Source: Arthrobacter humicola
GTDB taxonomy: Bacteria; Actinomycetota; Actinomycetes; Actinomycetales; Micrococcaceae
Direction: 5' to 3'
Assembly (NCBI RefSeq): GCF_022803015.1
Contig: NZ_JAFKON010000005.1
Location: 248,001-312,000, forward strand
DNA length: 64,000 nucleotides
Position 1 is the stretch's first letter. Every line of letters starts with the position of its first letter. Shown here piece after piece: positions 39,512 to 56,339 of this stretch. Made by a program: the position numbers and the translations under genes. The notes below the pieces were generated by a model. It was not told the DNA's origin. It worked only from the letters and a program-made list of their open reading frames with translations, and ran no database searches.

Positions 39512-40807
39512 ATGATGCTTCTCGAAAGAGACCTCATCCAGTCCGTCGGCTTCCGCAACGTAACGGACGGCGGACGTGTAACCGGCTTTCAGTTCCGGGT
39601 CCGGATGCCTTCCTACCGGGGCATGGCCGCGTCCCTCATCGATGGCATCGCCGTTCGCGTTGGCGGCATCGTCGACGTCGGACCTGACGTTCCGCTGTGG
39701 ACCTTCGGCGGGCGGACCTACACCCTGCAGCAGCTCTGGGAAAGTGATGGCGTGCGCTGGCCCCTTGAGGAAGCGGCAGTGGTCACCGTTCCCCTCGACG
39801 GCGGCCTGCCGCAGGGCGTCCACGAGCTCTCCATAGAGCTGCGGCTGCGGATGTCCTACATACCAGTCGAGCACCAGCCCACCACTCACCGGACCAGCCG
39901 CAAGGTGACGCTCGCGCCGGAAGGCGGCGAAGGTACCTTCCGCTACGGCGTTTCCCTCTACAGCTTTATGGGCGATTACGGCACGGTGATGGACCTTGAG
40001 ACGGCGCTGGCCGCCGTCGCTGACGTGGGCGCCACCGGCGTCGAGATCCTCGGCGAGGGCCACGTTCCCAACTATCCGGAACCGTCCCCGGCCTGGATCG
40101 ATAACTGGTTCGGCCTGCTGGAGAAGTATTCGCTGGAGCCGACGAACTACGGTTCCTGGATAGACACCCGTCTTCATTCGGGCCGCACCATGACGGTCGC
40201 CGAGGGTGCGGAGGCCCTGCAGCGGGACCTGCGGCTTGCCAACCAATTGGGTTTCGGCTTCGTGCGCCCCAAGATCGGCGTGGTGTCCAGCGATCTGGTC
40301 CCAGCCCCCATCTGGACCGAGTCCGTGGAACGCTCGCTTGATCTGGCCCACGAGCTGGGGATCATCATCTGCCCGGAGATTCATTCGCCGACGCCCATCA
40401 GGCACCCCGTCGTCGAGGACTACATCGGCCTCATCGAACGGACCGGAACCAAGAACTTCGGCCTGCTCATCGACACCGGAATCTTCCAGGACCGGCCCAT
40501 TCCGCTGCGCGCAGGTGAGACCCGCGAGACCCGGCCCGCCTTCCTCGACGGCATCGGCGTCGACCCCGCCGACTTCGCCGATATCGCCCAGTATGTGGTG
40601 TTCGTCCAGGCGAAGTTCCACGACATCAACGAGCAGCTGGAAGACCAGCAGATTCCCTGGCTGCCCGTGCTCAAGGCCCTCAAGGACTCCGGCTACACCG
40701 GTTATCTCTCCAGTGAATACGAAGGCGAACGCACGCCATGGCGTGCCATTGAGCAAGTGCGGCGCCAACACGCCCTGATCCGCCGCATCACCGGCGAACT
40801 TACCTGA
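39512..40807 (+). CDS. Fused C-glycoside deglycosidase, beta (DUF6379) plus alpha (TIM barrel)
   Basis: 431 residues. Residues 1-135 match the beta subunit of C-glycoside deglycosidase (DUF6379): TGFQFRVRMPSYRGMAAS, then the FGGRTYTLQQL and LSIELRLRMSYIPVEHQP segments. Residues 145-431 are the xylose-isomerase-like alpha subunit: GVSLYSFMGDYG, VEILGEGHVPNYPEP, PEIHSPTP (about 288), LLIDTG (about 318), VQAKFHDIN (about 365) and SSEYEGER (about 400). Known enzymes use separate alpha and beta chains that cleave the C-C bond of 3-keto C-glycosides with a divalent metal. Here both are one chain with a short linker. At the ligand position where the other copies have His (HVHAKF), this one has Gln, although a His follows three residues later. 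First gene of the plus-strand locus; RBS GAGAG. Confidence 0.8.
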   Translation: MMLLERDLIQSVGFRNVTDGGRVTGFQFRVRMPSYRGMAASLIDGIAVRVGGIVDVGPDVPLWTFGGRTYTLQQLWESDGVRWPLEEAAVVTVPLDGGLPQGVHELSIELRLRMSYIPVEHQPTTHRTSRKVTLAPEGGEGTFRYGVSLYSFMGDYGTVMDLETALAAVADVGATGVEILGEGHVPNYPEPSPAWIDNWFGLLEKYSLEPTNYGSWIDTRLHSGRTMTVAEGAEALQRDLRLANQLGFGFVRPKIGVVSSDLVPAPIWTESVERSLDLAHELGIIICPEIHSPTPIRHPVVEDYIGLIERTGTKNFGLLIDTGIFQDRPIPLRAGETRETRPAFLDGIGVDPADFADIAQYVVFVQAKFHDINEQLEDQQIPWLPVLKALKDSGYTGYLSSEYEGERTPWRAIEQVRRQHALIRRITGELT

Positions 40808-40838
40808 CCCATCCCATTTCCCAGTAAAGAGAGCAACA

Positions 40839-42317
40839 ATGCCAAACGGACTTCTTGACGATGCAAGCCTCCGCACCCATCCCGACGGTCTCGCGCTGGC
40901 CTTGACCCTGCCGTGGTACCGGAGTCTGTGGCTCTCCTCGGTCTCCAGCCTGCGGCTCACCGTCGACGGCCAGGATATCCCCGCCGGGAACCTGTCCCTG
41001 GAACTGGGTGGTGTCCGCTATGCGCTCCCGGACCTGCCCGCTCAAAGCGAAACTCTCTGGTACCTCCAGGAACATCCCTTGCTTATCGCCACAACGGAGA
41101 CCCCTGTTGCCCTGGGCGAGCAGCACACCGTCCGGCTCATCGGTGAGCTGCGCCTGCCGTACATGCAGATTGCTCCCGGCCAGGACGGCGGTCCCGGCAT
41201 GTACGTTCCCAACTTCGTGAACCAGACGATGGAGCTGACCGTCACGGACAGGGCTGCGGGGGCACCGGAACTGACGACGGCGGTCACGCCGCCCCCACCG
41301 AAAGCGGAGGATGATCCGTTCTCGCTGGGGCTCACCCTGTACTCGGCAAGCGCCGAATTCCGGGCCGGCTGGTACGACTTCGACGGTCTGCTGAACCGCG
41401 TGGCCGAGCTCGGCATCGGCCCCGGGATCGAAATTGTGGCATCGCAGGTCCTGCCTACCTATCCCAACGTGACTGACGACTTCGTGCGCTCGTGGCAGCG
41501 CGCCTTCGACAAGCACGGCTTCACCGCCAGCTCCTTCGGCGCCAATCTGGACATGGGACGCCGCCGTGACCGCGACATGACCCCGGACGAGGAGTACGAG
41601 TTCACGCAGACACTCTTCCACGGCGCCAAGAAGCTCGGTTTCCCGCTCGTCCGCATCCAGAGCGCGAAGCCGGAGCTGCTTCGCCGGCTGCTGCCGCTCG
41701 CCGAGGACCTCGAACTCAAACTTGCCTACGAGATCCATGCACCGCTGGGACCCAACTCGCCCGAGATCATGAAGGTCCGCGACGTCTACGCCGAGCTTGA
41801 TTCACCGCTGCTGGGCTTCGTGGCTGACTTCTCCTCCACCATGCACAGCATGTCTCCCACGCTCCTGCGCGCGGTTCGCCGTGCCGGGCTGGACGATGAC
41901 GCTGTGGAAAGGCTGCAGGCTATCTGGGGCACTGAGGCACCGATACGGGTGCGGCAGGAGGAGTTCATTGCGTACCTGCGGGGACGTGACTTCGATCCTG
42001 CCCGGCTTGGATCCTTCGCCCACCTGGCGTTCAACATGCACGGCCACGTCAGCCCGAAGGAGTGGGCTGACATCATGCCGCAAATCATGCACGTCCACGC
42101 GAAGTTCTACGACATTGATGAGCAGGGCAACGAGCCGGCCATCGACTATCCGGAACTGGTCCGCGTATTCGTCGAAGGCGGCTACCGCGGTTACTGGTCC
42201 AGCGAATGGGAAGGTCATGCCTTCGCCGAGCTCGGTGAGGTGGATCCGCTGCTGCTGGTGCGGAAGCAGCATGACCTTATCCGCAAGAGCATGCGGACGG
42301 CCCTGGCATCAGCCTGA
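40839..42317 (+). CDS. Second fused C-glycoside deglycosidase, beta plus alpha
   Basis: 492 residues. The beta part (1-135) has LPWYRSLWLSSV and LRLPYMQIAPGQ. A Pro/Ala linker (around 140-160, TAVTPPPPKAEDD) leads into the alpha TIM barrel: GLTLYSASAEF, IEIVASQVLPTYPN, DMGRRRDRDMTPDEEY, YEIHAPLGPN (about 297), ADFSSTMHS (about 329), HVHAKFYDID (about 417) and SSEWEGHAF (about 453). All putative metal ligands (Glu, Asp, His, Glu) are present. The alpha part is closest within the window to the split alpha gene at 51029 (shared DMGRRKDRDMTPDEEY, ADFSSTMHS). Probably cleaves a 3-keto C-glycoside. Follows the first fusion by 31 bp with an AGAGAG ribosome site. Confidence 0.85.
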   Translation: MPNGLLDDASLRTHPDGLALALTLPWYRSLWLSSVSSLRLTVDGQDIPAGNLSLELGGVRYALPDLPAQSETLWYLQEHPLLIATTETPVALGEQHTVRLIGELRLPYMQIAPGQDGGPGMYVPNFVNQTMELTVTDRAAGAPELTTAVTPPPPKAEDDPFSLGLTLYSASAEFRAGWYDFDGLLNRVAELGIGPGIEIVASQVLPTYPNVTDDFVRSWQRAFDKHGFTASSFGANLDMGRRRDRDMTPDEEYEFTQTLFHGAKKLGFPLVRIQSAKPELLRRLLPLAEDLELKLAYEIHAPLGPNSPEIMKVRDVYAELDSPLLGFVADFSSTMHSMSPTLLRAVRRAGLDDDAVERLQAIWGTEAPIRVRQEEFIAYLRGRDFDPARLGSFAHLAFNMHGHVSPKEWADIMPQIMHVHAKFYDIDEQGNEPAIDYPELVRVFVEGGYRGYWSSEWEGHAFAELGEVDPLLLVRKQHDLIRKSMRTALASA

Positions 42318-47106: not shown

Positions 47107-47883
47107 ATGTTCCAACTTTCGCCCAATATCGACCTTTTGTTCGCCGAAGCAGGCGAAAGTGCTGCTGACCGGGTTCGCGCGGCGGCAGCAGCCGGCTTCG
47201 ACGCCGTCGAAATGTGGGGCCCGACGGGCAAAGACATTCCGGCCCTGAAGCACGCACTCGAGGAAACCGGAGTCCAGCTCACCTCCCAACTGGCGGAACC
47301 GCGTATGCAGTTCATGATCCCGCCCCGCAACCACGATGCTTTCTACACCGGGCTGGACGCCGGCGTCGAAGTGGCACAGCAGCTCGGCTGCCCCCGGTTG
47401 GTAGTGGGCAGCGGTACCGGATTCGGCGGGCGCAAGCGGCAGGACCAGCTGGACGAACTGATTGAGATCTTCACCCGAGGCGTCGCGCACATCGAGGGTT
47501 CCGGCATCACCCTGGTTCTCGAACCGGTCAACGTCAGGGTTGACCACCCGGGAGCCCTGCTGGACCGGACCTCGGAAGCCGTCTATGTCGCCAAGGGCGT
47601 CAACTCGCCCAACTTCGGCGTTCTCTACGACCTCTACCACTCCACGGTCGAGGGCGAGGACGTGGCCGCCGAGCTCGCCAACGCCGGCGACCTCATCAAG
47701 TATGTTCAGATCGCAGATGTGCCGGGGCGCGGCGAACCCGGTTCCGGTTCCATCGACTGGCACGCCCGGCTCACGGACCTGGGGAACAGCGGATATGCCG
47801 GCCCCATCGGGCTCGAGTACTACCCGACGATCGACTCGGCGAAGTCCGTCCGGCGCATCCAGGAACTGGTGGCGGGATGGTGA
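47107..47883 (+). CDS. Hydroxypyruvate-isomerase-like TIM-barrel protein
   Basis: 258 residues. LSPNIDLLFAEAG and AAGFDAVEMWGPTG at the N-terminus, metal-site segments LVLEPVNVRVDHPG, FGVLYDLYHSTV, QIADVPGRGEPGSGSIDW and IGLEYYPTI. The sequence belongs to the Hyi/xylose-isomerase-like family but differs from the CGD alpha proteins of this locus (no EIH or SSEWEG). Likely isomerises the small keto-sugar released by the locus (inference). AGGAG lies six bases before the ATG; 3' end overlaps the GMC oxidase start. Confidence 0.88.
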   Translation: MFQLSPNIDLLFAEAGESAADRVRAAAAAGFDAVEMWGPTGKDIPALKHALEETGVQLTSQLAEPRMQFMIPPRNHDAFYTGLDAGVEVAQQLGCPRLVVGSGTGFGGRKRQDQLDELIEIFTRGVAHIEGSGITLVLEPVNVRVDHPGALLDRTSEAVYVAKGVNSPNFGVLYDLYHSTVEGEDVAAELANAGDLIKYVQIADVPGRGEPGSGSIDWHARLTDLGNSGYAGPIGLEYYPTIDSAKSVRRIQELVAGW

Positions 47884-49439
47884 GCGGTAACCGGTATCCC
47901 GTTGCGGTCGACGTCGCCATCGTCGGCAGCGGCCCCACGGCAGCGGCATACGCACGGATCCTCAGCGAGGAAGCCCCTGGTGCCACCATCGCCATGTTCG
48001 AGGTGGGCCCCACGGTCAGCAGTCCACCCGGGGCGCACGTCAAGAACATTGAGGATCCTGAACGCCGCAGCCTCGCGCAGCGGGCATCGGAAGGCCCCGG
48101 CGCAGGTGCCGAAACGGTGAACTCACCCGGCGCGGTCAAGAGCGGGGAGCGACGGGCCAGGCCCGGAACCTACCTGCTGCAGGACGGCTACGCCTTCCCC
48201 GGCGAGGACGGGATGCCCGTCGCCGCCATGTCCAGCAACGTGGGCGGCATGGCCGCCCACTGGACCGCTGCCTGCCCCCGCCCGGGCGGCAAAGAGCGCA
48301 TTCCGTTCCTGCCGGACCTTGAAGAGCTTCTTGACGACGCCGACCGACTGCTGGGGGTGACCACCCGCGCCTTCGACGGGGCTCCGTTCTCTGACCTCGT
48401 CCGGGAACGACTCGCCGCCGCCGTGGACGCGGGCCGTGACACCGCCTACCGCGTCCAGCCCATGCCTCTTGCTGTGCACCGGCGGGAGGACGGCGGCCTG
48501 GTCTGGTCAGGTTCCGACGTCGTGATGGGGGATGCGACCCGGGAAAATCCGCAGTTTGAACTCTATGATGAGTCGCTGGTAACGCGTGTGCTCCTGGAGG
48601 ATGGCGCTGCTGCCGGCATCGAAGTCCAGGACCGCCGCAGCGGCGAAACCCATCAGGTGGCGGCCCGCTACGTTGTGGTGGGTGCAGATGCCCTGCGCAC
48701 GCCGCAGCTGCTGTGGGCTTCCGGGATCCGGCCCGACGCCCTGGGCCGCTACCTCAACGACCAGGCGCAGGTAGTGTTCGCGAGCCGGCTGCGCGATGTC
48801 ACCGCTCCGCAGGGCCGGGCAGCCGCCAGCGGCGCGCTCAGTGAGCAGAGCGGAGTTGCCTGGGTTCCCTACACGGACGGGGCGCCCTTCCACGGCCAGA
48901 TCATGCAACTGGATGCGTCACCGGTTCCCTTGGCCGACGATGACCCCGTTGTCCCGGGCTCTATCGTGGGGCTTGGGCTGTTCTGCGCCAAGGATCTGCA
49001 GCGCGAGGACCGGGTGGCGTTCGACGACGGTGTCCGCGACTCGTACGGGATGCCCGCCATGCGCATCCACTACCGCCTCACGCGGCGGGATCACGAGGTA
49101 CTGGACCGCGCCAAGCAGGAAATTGTCCGCCTGGGCAAGGCGGTGGGTGAGCCGCTCGACGAGCGTCCGTTCGTCATGCCGCCCGGCGCATCGCTTCACT
49201 ACCAGGGCACAACCAGGATGGGCGCAAGGGACGACGGCCAGAGCGTGTGTTCGCCCGACAGCCAGGTGTGGCAGGTCCCCGGCCTCTTCGTGGCTGGCAA
49301 CGGCGTCATTCCCACCGCCACGGCATGCAATCCCACGCTGACCGCTGTAGCGCTCGCAGTGCGCGGGGCCCGGAAACTCAAAGAAGAACTCAACAGCTCT
49401 TTACTTATGTCTGAATCAGACAATAGACTGACTAAATAA
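47877..49439 (+). CDS. GMC-family FAD oxidase, CarA-type C-glycoside 3-oxidase candidate
   Basis: 520 residues. FAD site DVAIVGSGPTAAAYARIL; later AMSSNVGGMAAHWTAACPRP shields the flavin; catalytic His in SLHYQGTTRMG; and NPTLTAVALAVRGA near the C-terminus with the conserved Asn. No signal peptide. The family includes pyranose 2-oxidases and the CarA-type enzymes of Microbacterium and Arthrobacter that oxidise C-glycosides at C3 before CGD cleavage. The surrounding CGD genes make 3-oxidation of a C-glycoside the best guess. The start overlaps the isomerase gene by 7 bp. Confidence 0.85.
   Translation: MVSGNRYPVAVDVAIVGSGPTAAAYARILSEEAPGATIAMFEVGPTVSSPPGAHVKNIEDPERRSLAQRASEGPGAGAETVNSPGAVKSGERRARPGTYLLQDGYAFPGEDGMPVAAMSSNVGGMAAHWTAACPRPGGKERIPFLPDLEELLDDADRLLGVTTRAFDGAPFSDLVRERLAAAVDAGRDTAYRVQPMPLAVHRREDGGLVWSGSDVVMGDATRENPQFELYDESLVTRVLLEDGAAAGIEVQDRRSGETHQVAARYVVVGADALRTPQLLWASGIRPDALGRYLNDQAQVVFASRLRDVTAPQGRAAASGALSEQSGVAWVPYTDGAPFHGQIMQLDASPVPLADDDPVVPGSIVGLGLFCAKDLQREDRVAFDDGVRDSYGMPAMRIHYRLTRRDHEVLDRAKQEIVRLGKAVGEPLDERPFVMPPGASLHYQGTTRMGARDDGQSVCSPDSQVWQVPGLFVAGNGVIPTATACNPTLTAVALAVRGARKLKEELNSSLLMSESDNRLTK
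49403..49421 (+). promoter_or_regulatory. ACTTATG element with inverted repeat near 3' end of the oxidase gene
   Basis: ACTTATGTCTGAATCAGAC lies within the last codons of the oxidase gene. GTCTGA and TCAGAC form an inverted repeat (49409-49421). AT-rich sequence (ACTAAATAATGAATAAG) follows, as expected for a promoter of the beta/alpha genes at 49513. Confidence 0.5.
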
Positions 49440-49512: not shown

Positions 49513-49908
49513 ATGATCGCCGACCGCATAATCGAGCAGGGAACACTGATCACCCAAGACGGCCGTACCGCCGTCGAAGTCCGCATCCCCTGGTACCGGG
49601 CCCTGCCGGGTTCCTGCATCGCTGGAGCTGCATTGACAGTGGACGGCGTCAGCGCCCCCGAGGGCTCACTGCGCTGGACCATGAACAACCGCACTTTCAG
49701 CTTCGAGGAACTCGTGGACGAGACCGGCGAATGGTGGTTCCCGCTGGACTCGGCAGTCCTTTCGGGCGACCTTCCCGTCCCGGACAGCCGGACCGAGCAC
49801 GAGGTCAGGGTGGACCTGAAGCTCTACATCCCCTACATCATCACCGACCACGGCGTGCTGCACATCGAAGAGCACGACACCAAGACCATGAAGGTGGCAC
49901 AGCGATGA
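49513..49908 (+). CDS. C-glycoside deglycosidase beta subunit (DUF6379)
   Basis: 131 residues from ATG 49513 with AAGGAGG five bases upstream. Core motif VRIPWYRALPGSCIAGAALT, FSFEELVDETGEWWFPLD and LKLYIPYIITDHG match the DUF6379 beta subunit. The stop overlaps the alpha gene start by 4 bp (ATGA). In characterised enzymes the beta chain supports the alpha active site; it has no enzymatic residues of its own that I can point to. Opposite gene order to the second split pair (51029-52500). Confidence 0.85.
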   Translation: MIADRIIEQGTLITQDGRTAVEVRIPWYRALPGSCIAGAALTVDGVSAPEGSLRWTMNNRTFSFEELVDETGEWWFPLDSAVLSGDLPVPDSRTEHEVRVDLKLYIPYIITDHGVLHIEEHDTKTMKVAQR

Positions 49909-51008
49909 CCAGCCTCGGCACGCCGATCCAGGGCGTCACCCTTTACAGCTTCACCCGGGCCGTCCACGCCCGGCAGTACGACCTCGATGGCCTGATCCGC
50001 AAAGTGGCGGCCGAAGGCTTCGGCCCGGGGCTCGAAGTCATCGGATTCTCCAGCCTGCGCGGCTTCCCGGACCGGATCGATGACAACTTCGTTGGCCAGT
50101 TCCGTGATCTTGTGGCCGAGGTTGACCTGGTCCCCACCTCCCTCGCAGTCAACGTTGACACCGGTATCCGCCGCGACCGGCTCATGAACCATGACGAGCT
50201 TGTCGAATACATGCGCAAGCAGATCGACGTAGCCGCCAGGCTCGGCTTCCCGATCGCCCGGGTGCAGATATCGCTGACTCCGGACGCCATGGAAAGCCTG
50301 CTGCCCGTGGCCGAGAAGTACGGCGTCACCCTGGCCCTCGAAGTCCACGCGGACCAGCACGGCGCCCACGAACGTGTCCTGGCCCTTCGCGACCGCTACG
50401 AGAAACTCGATTCCCCCTTGCTCGGCTTCACCGCGGACTGGGGTGCCACCGTTACCGGCTTTGCGCCCTCCCTGCTGGAGGCCTACCGCCGCCGTGGGGC
50501 TTCGGAGGCACTTCTCGGACAGGTGGTTGACCTGTGGAATGGGTTCTACGCCGACGGACCGCCAAACACGCAAAAGGTTCACGGTGAACGCTTCGGCGCC
50601 TTCATCGGCCTGGCGGCCCGCAACGGCCGGCCCGACCTTGGCATTGACTTCGCCATCAACGGAACAGGGCTTTTCGGTCCTGCACCGCTGGACACCTGGC
50701 TGGAGATCATGCCTTGGGTCCGCCACGTGCACGGCAAGTTCTTCGGCATCGACGAGACCGGCGAAGAGCCCTCGGTGCCGGTCCGGAGCCTTGTCCGGCA
50801 ACTGGTTGAGAACGGCTACTCCGGCGCAATCTCCAGCGAATACGAAGGCTGGCACTGGAACAACTGGCAGGACCCGTTCGACATCATCCGCGGCGAGCAG
50901 GCCGTCCAGCGCTCAGCGGCCGCCAACGCCGGTTCGGCCATGATCACCGACGCTTCAGAAGCCCGCCGCATCCTCAACAGCCATCTCGCCCAGCCCGTCC
51001 GCGGCTGA
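49905..51008 (+). CDS. C-glycoside deglycosidase alpha subunit (TIM barrel)
   Basis: 367 residues from ATG 49905, translationally coupled to the beta gene. VTLYSFTRAVHARQYD, LEVIGFSSLRGFPDR, RVQISLTPDAMESLLPVAEK, LEVHADQHG (Glu and His), FTADWGATVTG (Asp), HVHGKFFGID (His) and SSEYEGWHW (Glu) form the xylose-isomerase-like metal site. Cleaves a 3-keto C-glycoside together with the beta subunit if the family prediction holds. It is the most distinct alpha of the locus; the DMGRRRDRD segment shared by two other copies is replaced by NVDTGIRRDRLMNHDE. Confidence 0.85.
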   Translation: MTSLGTPIQGVTLYSFTRAVHARQYDLDGLIRKVAAEGFGPGLEVIGFSSLRGFPDRIDDNFVGQFRDLVAEVDLVPTSLAVNVDTGIRRDRLMNHDELVEYMRKQIDVAARLGFPIARVQISLTPDAMESLLPVAEKYGVTLALEVHADQHGAHERVLALRDRYEKLDSPLLGFTADWGATVTGFAPSLLEAYRRRGASEALLGQVVDLWNGFYADGPPNTQKVHGERFGAFIGLAARNGRPDLGIDFAINGTGLFGPAPLDTWLEIMPWVRHVHGKFFGIDETGEEPSVPVRSLVRQLVENGYSGAISSEYEGWHWNNWQDPFDIIRGEQAVQRSAAANAGSAMITDASEARRILNSHLAQPVRG

Positions 51009-51028: not shown

Positions 51029-52093
51029 ATGTCAGAAGGCATCGCAGGCTCGGGCATCGAGCTTGGCATCACCCTCTATTCGCTCACCTCCGAGTTCGCC
51101 GCCGGGCTCTACACCCCTGAGACGCTGATCAAAGCTGTTGCAGATGAAGGCCTCGGCCCGGGGGTTGAGTTCAACATCGCCCAGATGCTGCGCACCTACC
51201 CGGACGTCGACGACGACTTCGTCCGCCTGTGGCGCGACAGCATGGACCGCTACGGCCTGACCCCCAGCGCAGTGGGCACCAACCTGGACATGGGCCGCCG
51301 CAAGGACCGGGACATGACACCCGATGAGGAGTACGACTTCTTCGCCGCGCAGCTGCACACGGCCAACAAGCTTGGTTTCCACCGCGTGGTGATCCGCTCC
51401 GCGGGCAAGGAATTGCTCCGCCGGCTGCTTCCCCTGGCCGAGAAGTACGACCAGAAGCTCGGCTACGAAATTCACGCGCCGCAGGGCCCGAACGATCCCA
51501 AGATCCTGCAGATCCGAGAAATGTACGAGGAACTGGGAAGCGACCGGCTCGGTTTCACCGCAGACTTCAGCTCGACGATGCACAGCCTTTCCCCGACCCT
51601 CTTCCGCACGTTGACGCAAATGGGGCTGCCCGAGGAGCACTTCGCCGTCATGCAGGAGATCTGGCGCAAACCGTCGCCCATGCATGAGCGCAACCAGGAG
51701 TTCGAGGACTACCTCAGTGCCAACAACTTTGATCCTGCCCGCCTGGGCCCGTTCACCCGGCTGGCATTCAACATGCATGGACTGGTTCCGCCGGAGGAGT
51801 GGCTGGATATCATGCCGCAGATCTTCCATGTCCACGCGAAGTTCTACGACATCGACGAACACGGCAATGAACCCGCGATGGACATTCCCCGCATTGTGCG
51901 CCAGTTCGTCAAGGGCGGCTACCAGGGCTACCTGTCCAGCGAGTGGGAGGGCCACGCGTTCGCCGACCTGGGCGAATCCGATCCGATCGACCTCGTCAAG
52001 AAGCAGCACACGCTGATGCGGCATGCCATCGAAGAGGCCGTTGATCCAAATGCATCCGACTCCCACGCGACCCTGGTCGAGACTGTTAAGTAA
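51029..52093 (+). CDS. C-glycoside deglycosidase alpha subunit, second split copy
   Basis: 354 residues. ITLYSLTSEFAAGLYTPE, DMGRRKDRDMTPDEEYDF, LRRLLPLAEKYDQKLGYEIH, FTADFSSTMHSLSP, HVHAKFYDIDEHGNEP and LSSEWEGHAFADLGE align along their whole length with the alpha part of the fusion at 40839. All ligand residues are present. The beta gene follows by 8 bp. RBS GAAGGA lies 10 bases before the ATG, a little far. Confidence 0.86.
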   Translation: MSEGIAGSGIELGITLYSLTSEFAAGLYTPETLIKAVADEGLGPGVEFNIAQMLRTYPDVDDDFVRLWRDSMDRYGLTPSAVGTNLDMGRRKDRDMTPDEEYDFFAAQLHTANKLGFHRVVIRSAGKELLRRLLPLAEKYDQKLGYEIHAPQGPNDPKILQIREMYEELGSDRLGFTADFSSTMHSLSPTLFRTLTQMGLPEEHFAVMQEIWRKPSPMHERNQEFEDYLSANNFDPARLGPFTRLAFNMHGLVPPEEWLDIMPQIFHVHAKFYDIDEHGNEPAMDIPRIVRQFVKGGYQGYLSSEWEGHAFADLGESDPIDLVKKQHTLMRHAIEEAVDPNASDSHATLVETVK

Positions 52094-52101
52094 GGAAAGC
52101 C

Positions 52102-52500
52102 ATGGCAACTCACAATTCCCTGTTCCAGGACACCGACGTCCGCAGGCACCCCGAGGGGATTGCCGTATCGGTGCAGCTGCCCTGGTACCGCAGCCTCTGG
52201 CTGTCCGCCGTTGACGACGTCGTTGCAACGGTCAACGGCGTGGAGATTCCCAAGGAGTCTCTCCGCTTCGAACTGCAGGACAAGTCCTACTCCATAGCTG
52301 AACTCCCGGAGCAATGGGAAACCCTGTGGTTCGTCGCAGACAAGCCCGACGTGATCATCCCGCTGGACCGCGTCCCCGACGCCGGCGAGGAGATCGACGT
52401 CGAGGTCATCCTCACCCTGCGCCTGCTGTATATGCAGATTGCGCCGATGCGTTACGTGGGCAACCGCGTCGCGGTTGACCGGACGGTGGTGCTCGCATGA
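52102..52500 (+). CDS. C-glycoside deglycosidase beta subunit, second split copy
   Basis: 132 residues. SVQLPWYRSLWLSAVDDVVA, AELPEQWETLWFVADK and LTLRLLYMQIAPMRYVGN are closely related to the beta part of the second fusion (LPWYRSLWLSSV; LPYMQIAPG). AAGGA before the ATG; ATGA overlap with the next gene. Together with the alpha gene at 51029 it forms an alpha-beta pair. Confidence 0.85.
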   Translation: MATHNSLFQDTDVRRHPEGIAVSVQLPWYRSLWLSAVDDVVATVNGVEIPKESLRFELQDKSYSIAELPEQWETLWFVADKPDVIIPLDRVPDAGEEIDVEVILTLRLLYMQIAPMRYVGNRVAVDRTVVLA

Positions 52501-53720
52501 AAACCCTGCGCGTGGCCATGATCGGTTATGGCTTCATGGGTGCTGCCCACTCCCAAGGCTGGCGGACGGCGCCGCGGGTATTCGACCTGCCTGCCGAGCC
52601 GGAAATGGCGGTTATTGTCGGCCGTAACGCTGAAGCGGTCGCCGCCGCTGCCAGCAAGTGGGGCTGGGCCGAGTCAGCAACAGACTGGCGGGACGTGATC
52701 GCCCGCGACGATATCGACGTCGTCGATATCGTCACCCCCGGCGACTCCCACGCCGAAATCGCGATCGCCGCGCTGGAGGCCGGGAAGCACGTTTTGTGCG
52801 AAAAACCACTCGCCAACACGGTGGCGGAAGCCGAAGCGATGGCCGAAGCCGCCGAACGGGCGGCTGCCCGGGGCATCCAGGCAATGGTCGGTTTCACCTA
52901 CCGCCGCGTTCCGGCTGTCACCTTCCTCCGCAACCTCATCGCCGAAGGCGCCGTCGGCACGATCAACCAGGTGCGTGCCTCGTACCGGCAGGACTGGCTG
53001 GTGGACCCGGAGATGCCGCTGGCCTGGCGCCTGCAGAAGGAACACGCCGGCTCGGGGGCCCTGGGGGACATCGGCGCCCACGCCATCGACCTGGCCCAGT
53101 TCGTCACCGGCCTGAACCTGGAGAAGGTGTCCGGCGTTATCGACACCATCGTGAAGGAGCGGCCTCTTTTGAAGGGCTCCACTTCAGGCTCCGGACCTTC
53201 CGATACCGGGCTTTCCGGCGCTGCCGGTGTCGGCTCCGGCGTCGGCTCCGGCCAGGTGACGGTGGACGATATCGCCATCTTCACGGGCCGCTTCGAATCC
53301 GGCGCGCTGGCGTCGTTCGAGGCCACCCGGTTTGCCACCGGCCGGAAGAACGCGCTCCAGATTGAGGTTTCCGGGGACAAGGGCGCCCTGGCCTTCGACC
53401 TCGAGGACCTCAACAGCGTCCAGTTCTACGACCGCACGGCACCTGCGGACCGCCAGGGCTTCCGGAAGGTCCTGGTCACGGAAGCGGAGCATCCCTACGT
53501 TTCGGCGTGGTGGCCGGCAGGCCACATGCTCGGTTACGAGCACGGGTTCTCCCACCAGGTCAAGGACCTCGTGGAGGGCATCGTGGGCGGCTCCGCCCCG
53601 CATTCGTCGTTCGCCGACGGGCTGAGGGTGCAGCGGGTGCTCGACGCTGTCGAGCGCAGTTCCGAAAATGATTCCGCCTGGACACGTGTCGCTGCCGGCG
53701 TTCCCGTGCCGGCCAGTTGA
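52497..53720 (+). CDS. Gfo/Idh/MocA-family oxidoreductase
   Basis: 407 residues. NAD(P) site [17 protein letters not shown], the EKP motif in [18 protein letters not shown], and the substrate-domain [14 protein letters not shown] with [21 protein letters not shown] Gly/Ser-rich insert (about 220-248, [15 protein letters not shown]) interrupts the substrate domain. Likely reduces or oxidises the keto-sugar in this locus. Overlaps the beta gene by 4 bp. Confidence 0.88.
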
Positions 53721-53733
53721 GGAGGGGAAGCAC

Positions 53734-54738
53734 GTGGCACGACCAATTACCTTGTTCACCGGCCAGTGGGCCGACCTGCCGTTCGAGGAGGTGGCCCGGC
53801 TCGCCGGCGAATGGGGCTACGACGGGCTGGAGATCGCCTGCTGGGGTGACCACCTGGACCCCTGGCGCTGGGACGACGACGCCTATGTGCAGGGCAAGCT
53901 GGACATTCTTGACCGCCACGGCCTCAAAGTGTGGACCATCTCCAACCACCTCAAGGGCCAGGCCGTCTGCGACGACCCGATCGACGAACGGCACCGCGGC
54001 ATCCTGCCGGACGTCGTATGGGGCGACGGCGATCCTGAAGGGGTCCGCCGTCGTGCCGCCGAGGAACTGAAGAACACTGCACGGCTCGCCGCCAAGCTGG
54101 GGGTGAAAACAGTGACCGGCTTTACGGGATCGTCCATCTGGAAGTACGTGGCGATGTTCCCGCCCGCCTCCGAAAAGATGGTCGACGCCGGCTACCAGGA
54201 CTTTGCCGACCGGTGGAACCCCATCCTCGATGTCTTTGACGAGGTGGGCGTCCGGTTCGCCCATGAGGTGCACCCATCAGAGATCGCCTACGACTACTGG
54301 ACAACGCAGCGCGCCCTCGAGGCGATCGGGCACCGCGAGGCCTTTGGCCTGAACTGGGACCCGAGCCACATGGTGTGGCAGGACATCGACCCTGTGGGGT
54401 TCCTGTGGGACTTCAAGGACCGGATCTACCATGTGCACTGCAAGGACACGAAGAAGCGCCTGTCCAACGGGCGCAACGGCCGGCTCTCCTCCCATTTGCC
54501 CTGGGCTGATCCGCGCCGCGGCTGGGACTTCATCTCCACCGGCCACGGCGACGTGCCGTGGGAGGATGCGTTCCGGATGCTGAACGCCATCGACTACCGC
54601 GGGCCGCTGTCCGTGGAGTGGGAGGACGCCGGAATGGACCGGCTGGATGGCGCCCCCGAGGCGCTGGCCTTCGTGCGCCGGCTCTCCGCCTATGAACCCT
54701 CCGCCGCAGCTTTCGACGCCGCATTCAGCACGAAGTAA
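53734..54738 (+). CDS. Sugar phosphate isomerase/epimerase-like TIM-barrel protein
   Basis: 334 residues from a GTG at 53734 with GAGGAGG upstream; the longer frame to 53668 overlaps the previous gene. [75 protein letters not shown] and [14 protein letters not shown] carry the Glu/Asp/His/Glu metal site. It is the IolE-like, not the CGD, group. Probably isomerises the sugar product. A strong bidirectional terminator follows at 54743. Confidence 0.88.
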
Positions 54739-54810: not shown

Positions 54811-55854
54811 TCAGAGGGCAGCCCGGGCCGCTGGTGCCGGCTCCACCGCTGCCGACTCCACCGCTGCTGGCTCCGCGAGGGCTGCCCCCGCCAGGGCCAG
54901 GTGACTCCGCGTCATCTCCGTTGGGTCGTCCTGCAGCCACTCGTGGCCGCCCCATTCGCTGGTCAGCGTGCCCGTGAAGCCGGTCCCGCGCAGCAGGCTG
55001 CCAAGGTCATGCAGCGGCTGGGAAACCCGGCCGCCGTCGTCGTCCAGATCCCAGAACTTCAGATGGAAGGCGCCCACCAGGGGGAGGATGCCCTGCAGGT
55101 CTGCGGCGTCGCTGCGGCCGAAGCGGATGAGCAGGTTCATGAAGAGGGTGTGGATGCGCGGCGGAACCTTCCCTGCGCGGAGCAGGGCGATGACGGCATC
55201 GAGGGTGGCGGGATCGCGCCAGTCATTCTCCAGGCGCGCCAGAAGATCGGAAGGAACGCCGCCCTGCCGCAACTCATGAAGGTAGGTGACGGGAAGGGCC
55301 GGCATGAGCATGCTGATGTCGACGAGTACCCGCACGTGCTCGTCTGCCAGCCCGGCTATCGCATCCAGTGCTGGTGCCACAGAAGGGTTGTTTGGAGTCT
55401 GCTGCCCTTGGATTTCTTCGTACAGCACCAGATCGAGTTCATGCAGCAGCGGCTGCAGCAGCGTGAGCAGTTCCGTTCCCGCCTGTCCGATCGGTAGCCG
55501 GATCCCGCGGGCACCCACTCGGCTGGCGGCGCTGAGCTGGGGGACCAGGAAGTCCAAGCGCTCCTGCAACGAGCGGCGGTCGGTTGGGGACGTGAAGTCG
55601 TCGAGGCTGGCGCCAACGATGCTGACGCGGCCCCCTCTTGCCGCCAGCGAATCCCGCAGTTCGTCTACCTCGGCGTCCTGCGGAGCGGGGAAGGACCGCC
55701 ACAGCAGCCCAGGTTCGAGCTCTATTGTCTTCGCCACGGAATCCGCGATGCCAATCACAACGTCAGTGGCTGTCCGCCGGGCTGCCGTGATCTCCGGAAT
55801 CCAGTTGAACGAGCTGGCGCAGAGGGTCCAGTTGTCAGGAAGTGCGGGGGCCAT
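54811..55854 (-). CDS. Diverged CGD-alpha-like TIM-barrel protein
   Basis: 347 residues from ATG 55854 (GGAAGG upstream); an in-frame ATG at 55869 overlaps that site. CASSFNWIPEITAARRTATD, LVLYEEIQGQQTPNNPS (Glu but Gln in place of His), VRVLVDISMLMP (Asp), AFHLKFWDLDDDGG (His) and TSEWGGHEWLQDDP (Glu) follow the CGD alpha site, but the EIH histidine is changed and overall similarity is lower. Ala-rich C-terminal tail. Divergent from a beta gene with about 70 bp between them, suggesting a working pair. Activity uncertain. Confidence 0.72.
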   Translation of the reverse strand: MAPALPDNWTLCASSFNWIPEITAARRTATDVVIGIADSVAKTIELEPGLLWRSFPAPQDAEVDELRDSLAARGGRVSIVGASLDDFTSPTDRRSLQERLDFLVPQLSAASRVGARGIRLPIGQAGTELLTLLQPLLHELDLVLYEEIQGQQTPNNPSVAPALDAIAGLADEHVRVLVDISMLMPALPVTYLHELRQGGVPSDLLARLENDWRDPATLDAVIALLRAGKVPPRIHTLFMNLLIRFGRSDAADLQGILPLVGAFHLKFWDLDDDGGRVSQPLHDLGSLLRGTGFTGTLTSEWGGHEWLQDDPTEMTRSHLALAGAALAEPAAVESAAVEPAPAARAAL

Positions 55855-55867
55855 GTGATGCCTTCCC

Positions 55868-55908
55868 ATTTATGCTTGTTAATGACAAACTTATGTCACT
55901 TTTAGGAT
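55868..55908 (+). promoter_or_regulatory. ACTTATG element in the divergent alpha-like/beta region
   Basis: ATTTATGC at 55868 and ACTTATGTCACTTTTAGG at 55889 lie 21 bp apart, the same arrangement as before the ABC importer (43439/43461). Candidate ROK operator; the last bases, TAGGAT, could also form a -10 box for the beta gene at 55923. Confidence 0.6.
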
Positions 55909-55922
55909 AAAGGATGGAAGCC

Positions 55923-56339
55923 ATGTTGCAAACCGCTTTGCGCGAAGATGCGCTGACGGCCACGCCGGAAGGCTTTGAACTCCGGCTCGGCCTGTCATGG
56001 ATCCGCTCCATGCCCCTTTCCACCGTGGCTGAGCTCGCAGTTGAGGTCGACGGCATCCCGGTGGCACCAGGGGAGTTGACGGTGGTGCTGGGGGCCCGGC
56101 GCGTGCGTGCGGACGCATTGCAGGCGGAGCCCGGGTGGTGGTTCGTGCAGGACAGGGTGGTCCTGGCCGGCCGGCGCGAGCTTTCCCGCGGGGTGCACGC
56201 CATCGCCGTCGACTTCCAGCTGCTGGTGCCCTACCTTCAGGCGCGTCCCGGTTCTCCGCTGGTCCTGCCGTTCCATCTGGAGGCCCGGCTGGAGCTTGAC
56301 CGGGAACCGGTGCCCAGCGTCTCCCGCGATGTGGCCTGA
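55923..56339 (+). CDS. Diverged C-glycoside deglycosidase beta subunit (DUF6379)
   Basis: 138 residues from ATG 55923 (AAAGGA eight bases before); ATG 55914 overlaps the site. LRLGLSWIRSMPLSTVAELA replaces the PWYRSL core of the other copies, and FQLLVPYLQARPGSPLV keeps the beta-family pattern. It likely pairs with the divergent alpha-like gene. Convergent with the ROK repressor (stop at 56369). Confidence 0.75.
   Translation: MLQTALREDALTATPEGFELRLGLSWIRSMPLSTVAELAVEVDGIPVAPGELTVVLGARRVRADALQAEPGWWFVQDRVVLAGRRELSRGVHAIAVDFQLLVPYLQARPGSPLVLPFHLEARLELDREPVPSVSRDVA

Follow-up and report, generated by a model that had tools for sequence, protein, structure and literature searches.

Two putative single-chain C-glycoside deglycosidases encoded beside split enzymes in Arthrobacter humicola

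Two adjacent genes for beta-alpha fusion proteins

The window analysed here, 64,000 nucleotides of the Arthrobacter humicola assembly GCF_022803015.1 (contig NZ_JAFKON010000005.1, positions 248,001 to 312,000), carries two co-directional genes, f1 and f2, whose products each join the beta and alpha parts of a C-glycoside deglycosidase (CGD) in one polypeptide (Table 1). Only 31 bases separate the two genes. In both products a PF19906 (CGDB) domain is followed by a PF01261 (AP_endonuc_2) domain, at residues 4-116 (E 3.5e-32, 111 bits) and 166-418 (E 6.5e-17) of f1, and at residues 15-108 (E 2.7e-10, 40.5 bits) and 187-478 (E 9.7e-9) of f2. All four matches exceed the Pfam cut-offs (27.6 bits for PF19906), in agreement with the initial annotation, which had described both proteins as a DUF6379 beta domain joined to a TIM-barrel alpha domain; DUF6379 is the label found on solved chains bearing a first domain of the PF19906 type. 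NCBIfam assigns no family to either protein. The best fold matches of the structure models, for f1 (template-free; predicted local distance difference test score (pLDDT) 92.6, predicted template modelling score (pTM) 0.90) as for f2 (pLDDT 93.7, pTM 0.91), are CGD chains.

Table 1. Coordinates of f1, f2 and associated genes in the window
Feature	Position	Strand	Evidence and remarks
f1	39512-40807	+	431 residues; CGDB/DUF6379 domain, then xylose-isomerase-like barrel
f1 beta (CGDB/DUF6379) domain, residues 1-134	39512..39913	+	PF19906; domain boundary chosen by us
f1 linker, residues 135-143 (9 residues)	39914..39940	+	alignment A2
f1 alpha domain, residues 144-431, stop included	39941..40807	+	PF01261; 8QRZ match over both domains
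f2	40839-42317	+	492 residues; CGDB/DUF6379 domain, then xylose-isomerase-like barrel
f2 beta domain, residues 1-136	40839..41246	+	PF19906; boundary chosen by us; 42% identity to AgCGD2 beta
f2 linker, residues 137-158 (22 residues)	41247..41312	+	alignment A1
f2 alpha domain, residues 159-492, stop included	41313..42317	+	PF01261; 60% identity to AgCGD2 alpha
GMC oxidase, presumed to be the pathway's glycoside 3-oxidase	47877..49439	+	full-length match to 7QF8, 1056 bits
split beta1	49513..49908	+	PF19906, E 3.5e-13
split alpha1	49905..51008	+	PF01261, E 7.3e-8; start overlaps beta1 stop by 4 bases (49905-49908)
split alpha2, AgCGD2 alpha orthologue	51029..52093	+	96% to its AgCGD2 counterpart in L013; PF01261
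split beta2, AgCGD2 beta orthologue	52102..52500	+	91% to L013 counterpart; PF19906
barrel protein, presumed 2-hydroxy-3-keto-glucal hydratase	53668..54738	+	8RO4, E 2.6e-37; 2ZDS, E 7.5e-170
alpha3, CGD alpha-like	54811..55869	-	PF01261 below its cut-off; lacks catalytic His and Glu
beta3	55914..56339	+	PF19906, E 1e-7

The joints between the domains are less conserved than what they connect. The f1 linker has its 9 residues in 51/51 long rows of alignment A2 (among them three f2-type rows with a poor fit to that alignment), with an identity of 0.46 compared to 0.74-0.77 in the domains. That of f2 measures 22 residues in 43/49 fused rows of alignment A1 and 21-30 in the remainder, with an identity of 0.49 compared to 0.70-0.84.

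Relatives of f2 were collected as 80 loci, retained from 93 confirmed ones and drawn by likeness to f2, so that the counts are not population frequencies. Loci in which a single open frame had its start codon before the beta domain were scored as fused. By this definition f2 is fused in 68 loci and split in 10, the frame being broken in the other 2; with one intact frame in 68 of the 80, chance or a frame artefact is ruled out as the source of the fusion. The fused loci belong to Microbacteriaceae, Micrococcaceae and one unclassified record, the split ones to Geodermatophilaceae, Streptosporangiaceae, Sinomonas and another unclassified record; the nearest named relatives of f2 (97%) are from Arthrobacter (L006 and L007). 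One broken frame is that of Microbacterium elymi KUDC0405 (L082:9938-11475), through decay or a sequencing error. The other (L068) comes from a Planococcus sp. APC 4015 record, whose locus resembles those of Microbacteriaceae and has an f1 84.5% identical to 8QRZ (see below); this is perhaps a contaminating contig. Within the genus of the window, 29/121 genomes have a CGDB match, and the same 16 genomes, including that of the window, have an f1-sized (432-435 codons) and an f2-sized frame (502-561 codons). CGDB is rare more widely, with matches in 12/297 genomes of the order and 5/396 of the phylum (the window's genome being counted in both).

Relation to solved enzymes

Protein f1 is a further member of a fused kind already present in the PDB. 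Entries 8QRZ/8UN2, released on 2025-04-23 under the title "Microbacterium testaceum C-glucosyl deglycosidase", from which title alone the function is known here, contain a fused chain of 435 residues, which, as printed for 8QRZ, has 100% identity to the product of an M. testaceum NS220 gene (L039). Residues 2-430 of f1 match it with E 1.8e-225 and 75.5% identity along the chain, and the f1 model superposes on it over both domains at 1.3-1.4 Å (429 residues, Z 53.4, TM 0.97). Since the solved chain starts with the Met of the second ATG of f1, at 39515, this may be the true start of the gene.

No close fused relative of f2 was found in the PDB: its best match is the split enzyme AgCGD2, and 8QRZ/8UN2 is the sole fused chain among the matches. 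The suggestion of the initial annotation that fused CGDs had not been described is thus ruled out by 8QRZ/8UN2 for f1, and holds for f2 within the searches made, such that the f2-type fusion looks undescribed. No paper on a fused CGD was among the matches listed from the open-licence literature, in which no paper on 8QRZ/8UN2 was found either (a subscription paper may exist); the MtCGD of PMC8563793 is a different enzyme, from M. trichothecenolyticum. That the CGD enzymes known biochemically have separate chains, as the annotation also stated, agrees with the two-chain enzymes of PMC8563793, PMC12724307 and PMC12141560; judging by 8QRZ/8UN2, a CGD can also consist of a single chain.

Conservation of active-site residues

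Residues are numbered here as in AgCGD2 (PMC8563793), and were counted in 71 f2 and 76 f1 rows with at least 270 aligned residues, including the window's genome and its near-copies. The metal ligands E147, D179, H269, K271 and E305 are kept in 71/71 f2 rows, as are Y17 and N248, and the catalytic residues H149 and E307 are kept in 71/71 f2 and 76/76 f1 rows. In f1, all residues checked are kept except N248, an aglycone contact that falls in a gap, and H269, which is Gln in 76/76 rows, leaving four of five metal ligands in place. The result is unchanged for the 68 f2 and 66 f1 distinct sequences that remain without the window's genome. A Tyr stands at the column of Tyr39 of the PuCGE beta subunit in 76/76 f1 and 70/70 f2 rows; PuCGE needs this residue for C-glycosides (PMC10628242). 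The Gln at position 269 is also found in 8QRZ. Split relatives carry it too, which rules out the exchange as a consequence of fusion and makes Gln269 older than the fusion.

Origin of the fusions

A tree of concatenated beta and alpha sequences (54 rows, 484 columns) was used to place fused and split forms. It leaves out nine rows of a first set of 63, i.e. L037 (cut by a contig end), the frame-broken L068, a copy of the window's alpha3, three chains from the PDB and three rows lacking a beta partner. The first tree, in which L037 and L068 were mislabelled, had 8 changes between fused and split states; the 54-row tree has 6, of which 5 are forced by supported branches. Protein f2 groups with its L009 counterpart and a Curtobacterium fusion (support 98/94), inside a clade (100/100) whose other four rows are split. 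The group formed by f1 and five fused rows (100/100) belongs to a larger clade with nine fused and six split members; DfgA adjoins this larger clade in the 63-row tree. A single clade of f1 and f2 types is rejected (approximately unbiased test, p-AU 9.7e-56), at a cost of 389 log units. Two separate fusion events are therefore the simplest reading of these sequences for f1 and f2, and the Dfg-type clade that includes f1 may itself contain one or more events.

Further fused lineages are represented by the alpha3 type (L021, L139) and by L128, so that at least four lineages of the CGD family include fused forms: the Dfg type (with f1), the f2 type, the alpha3 type and the L128 type. Locus L128 (100-1563 and 1575-3005, minus strand), from a genome of the same taxonomic order as that of the window (G354), has two tandem beta-alpha CGD fusions, apart from f1 and f2 in descent. 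All 17 split junctions examined have the beta gene first. In 11 of them, as in beta1/alpha1 of the window, beta stop and alpha start overlap by 4 bases; in 4 the alpha start lies 11-17 bases past the beta stop, and in the remaining 2 no alpha start was located. The simplest origin of each fusion would be such a pair of overlapping genes with beta ahead of alpha, and the tree is more simply read as fusion than as repeated fission.

Eight loci had been labelled as "split" for f1. The genes in L023 and L025 group with the alpha3 type, and those in L071 and L084 lie elsewhere in the locus. In the other four (L020, L027, L035 and L075, from Leifsonia and others), a split beta-alpha pair stands directly upstream of a fused f2, at the usual place of f1, with alpha chains 53-54% identical to f1.

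Predicted domain placement

The f2 model matches each single domain of known CGDs. Over both domains, however, it deviates from 8QRZ/8UN2 by 16.4 Å (382 residues), or by 17.9 Å over 508-510 columns (TM ~0.5), so that in the models the f1 and f2 chains place the beta domain differently. Solved CGD heterodimers differ by 2.2-3.5 Å (PMC8563793). The two fused chains therefore cannot both present the common heterodimer within one chain, provided that this range covers the whole dimer and that the f2 model is right.

Among the split relatives, EuCGD, which is kin to f1, is an alpha4-beta4 complex and AgCGD2, which is kin to f2, an alpha-beta dimer (PMC8563793). On account of the placement difference, the linker lengths of 9 and 22 residues and these assemblies of their kin, f2 probably caps its own barrel and f1 perhaps swaps beta domains between chains. 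The mode of joining would then mirror the assembly of the split kin, with a short joint in the alpha4-beta4 lineage and a long one in the alpha-beta lineage. Measured between profile matches, whose ends are soft, the gap ranges from -5 to 12 in Dfg-type fusions and from 17 to 21 in f2. Joint length fails as a clean lineage marker, since the alpha3-type fusions have gaps of 8 (L139) and 26 (L021).

Split CGD genes and pathway neighbours

The genome has five CGDB matches, all within the window: f1, f2, beta1, beta2 and beta3. The last three are separate chains, each with a separate alpha partner, which bears out the split pairs reported for this locus by the initial annotation. In the third pair, alpha3 and beta3 are divergently transcribed. 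Alpha3 keeps the metal ligands, with Gln at the catalytic His and Gly at the catalytic Glu (read in L005_368, the same gene); beta3 has Ile at the position of the beta Tyr, as do four split relatives. To judge from these residues, the pair may do other chemistry or none. Elsewhere, four split CGD beta genes lie within ~4 kb, with alpha genes between them, in genome G582 of the phylum sample (L141, L144-L146).

The GMC oxidase upstream of beta1 matches 7QF8, which we take to be the glycoside 3-oxidase of P. siccitolerans. The barrel protein downstream of beta2 is closer to 2ZDS, the structure of SCO6571 (entered as a putative DNA-binding protein), than to the hydratase 8RO4, a double match in sequence that hints at a function for SCO6571. 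Other neighbours encode a second GMC oxidase, two Gfo/Idh/MocA proteins, a sugar-type ABC importer, an MFS protein, and LysR and ROK regulators. This set fits the route that PMC10628242 proposes for plant glycosides in Agrobacterium tumefaciens, through oxidation, elimination, hydration and reduction.

In A. globiformis NBRC 12137 (L013:2318-5126) and Pseudarthrobacter siccitolerans 4J27 (L009:8670-11476), f1 and f2 lie ~7 kb upstream of the split CGD genes. The alpha2 gene product of L013 is identical to the printed residues of 7DNM_A, and the source strain of AgCGD2 thus carries f1 and f2. For strain 4J27, PMC10646112 lists two C and two B proteins of CGD type, four in all, in the vicinity of the 3-oxidase.

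Proposed function and alternative explanations

C-C glycosidic bonds are hard to break. From architecture, homology, residue conservation, the lack of a single f1-f2 clade, the existence of split relatives and the differing predicted beta placement, we consider it likely that f1 and f2 are separately fused single-chain CGDs that would act as 3-keto-glycoside beta-eliminases and probably assemble differently. The neighbouring GMC oxidase would supply 3-keto-glycosides; the barrel would hold a divalent metal and the catalytic His, the beta domain would form the aglycone pocket, and cleavage would proceed by beta-elimination. With its 22-residue linker, f2, kin of AgCGD2, would cap its own barrel. 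The chain of f1, with its 9-residue linker and its DfgA/DfgB kin, is arranged in the model as in 8QRZ and would cap the barrel of a neighbour, if the usual alpha-beta interface is kept. Several points weigh against this reading: f1 lacks His269, and replacing this ligand by Ala lowered the activity of PuCGD and MiCGD dramatically (PMC8563793); the domain placement of f2 is a prediction; the linker argument is blurred by the short and long joints of the alpha3 type; and counts of changes on a tree give no direction between fusion and fission.

The substrate may also be questioned. PuCGE cleaves both 3-keto O- and C-glucosides (PMC10628242), and the natural substrate of f1 and f2 may be of either kind; the fused enzymes might act mainly on 3-keto O-glycosides, with fusion unrelated to C-C cleavage, and the altered metal ligand of f1 would be in line with this. 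Against it stand the beta Tyr associated with C-glycosides, present in every f1 and f2 row, and the title of 8QRZ, and we regard such a preference as unlikely. A loss of catalysis, making the fused proteins relics or regulators, could likewise be argued from the missing His269, but is very improbable given that the active-site residues checked are all kept throughout the f2 rows, that f1 keeps all but His269 and N248, and that the frames are conserved across genera.

As to assembly, both enzymes might cap their own barrels, the difference in placement being an error of the f2 model, whose alignment is deep in one fused lineage only and whose placement has no solved counterpart. The same method reproduced the 8QRZ/8UN2 arrangement for f1, however, and the pTM of f2 is high, so that this explanation, though worth considering, is rather doubtful. 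The occurrence of fused forms in four separate lineages, together with changes that carry no direction, would also fit ancestral fused CGDs from which split pairs arose by repeated fission; with 38 of 54 tree rows split, throughout nearly the whole tree, and overlapping beta-alpha gene pairs as natural forerunners of fusion, we find this quite improbable.

It is tempting to carry the preferred reading, of two separately fused CGDs, one step further, and to propose tentatively, as a possibility on which we would not insist, that one operon holds two opposite solutions to joining, an in-chain site in f2 and beta exchange within a homo-oligomer in f1. Subunit joining would then be a recurring move in the CGD family, with the type of joint following that of the split kin, and fusion would prevent mispairing among the five alpha-beta units residing in the same cell. 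The argument of the initial annotation that a single chain would fix a 1:1 stoichiometry is weakened by the split enzymes already being alpha-beta or alpha4-beta4 (PMC8563793). What fusion would fix is rather the identity of the partner, securing correct pairing among the five CGD units. Between PuCGD and EuCGD there is no exchange of subunits (PMC8563793). It is the beta subunit that enables PuCGE to cleave C-glycosides at all (PMC10628242). Single-chain CGDs of two lineages beside split ones in one cell offer a clean comparison of cis, swapped and two-chain forms, and fused CGDs a one-gene format for biocatalysis.

Comparison with known CGD systems

The closest known system to f1 is 8QRZ/8UN2, with the same beta-alpha single chain, domain order, sequence type and domain placement, and with Gln at position 269. 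The same structure differs from f2, which is ~25% identical to it and has a longer linker, another predicted placement and His at position 269. Among split enzymes, the nearest solved relative of f1 is EuCGD (DfgA/DfgB) of Eubacterium cellulosolvens (7BVS/7DRE), with 37% identity in alpha and 40% in beta over the printed segments; unlike f1, it consists of two chains in an alpha4-beta4 complex and has His rather than Gln at position 269. AgCGD2 (AgCarB2-C2) of Arthrobacter globiformis (7DNM/7DNN) has the same active-site residues as f2, but is made of two chains with the alpha gene first, whereas f2 is one chain with beta first and a 22-residue linker. PuCGD/PuCGE (DgpB/DgpC, 7BVR) resembles f1 and f2 in domain types, beta Tyr and, apart from position 269 in f1, metal ligands, and differs from both as a two-chain alpha4-beta4 enzyme of a gut bacterium.

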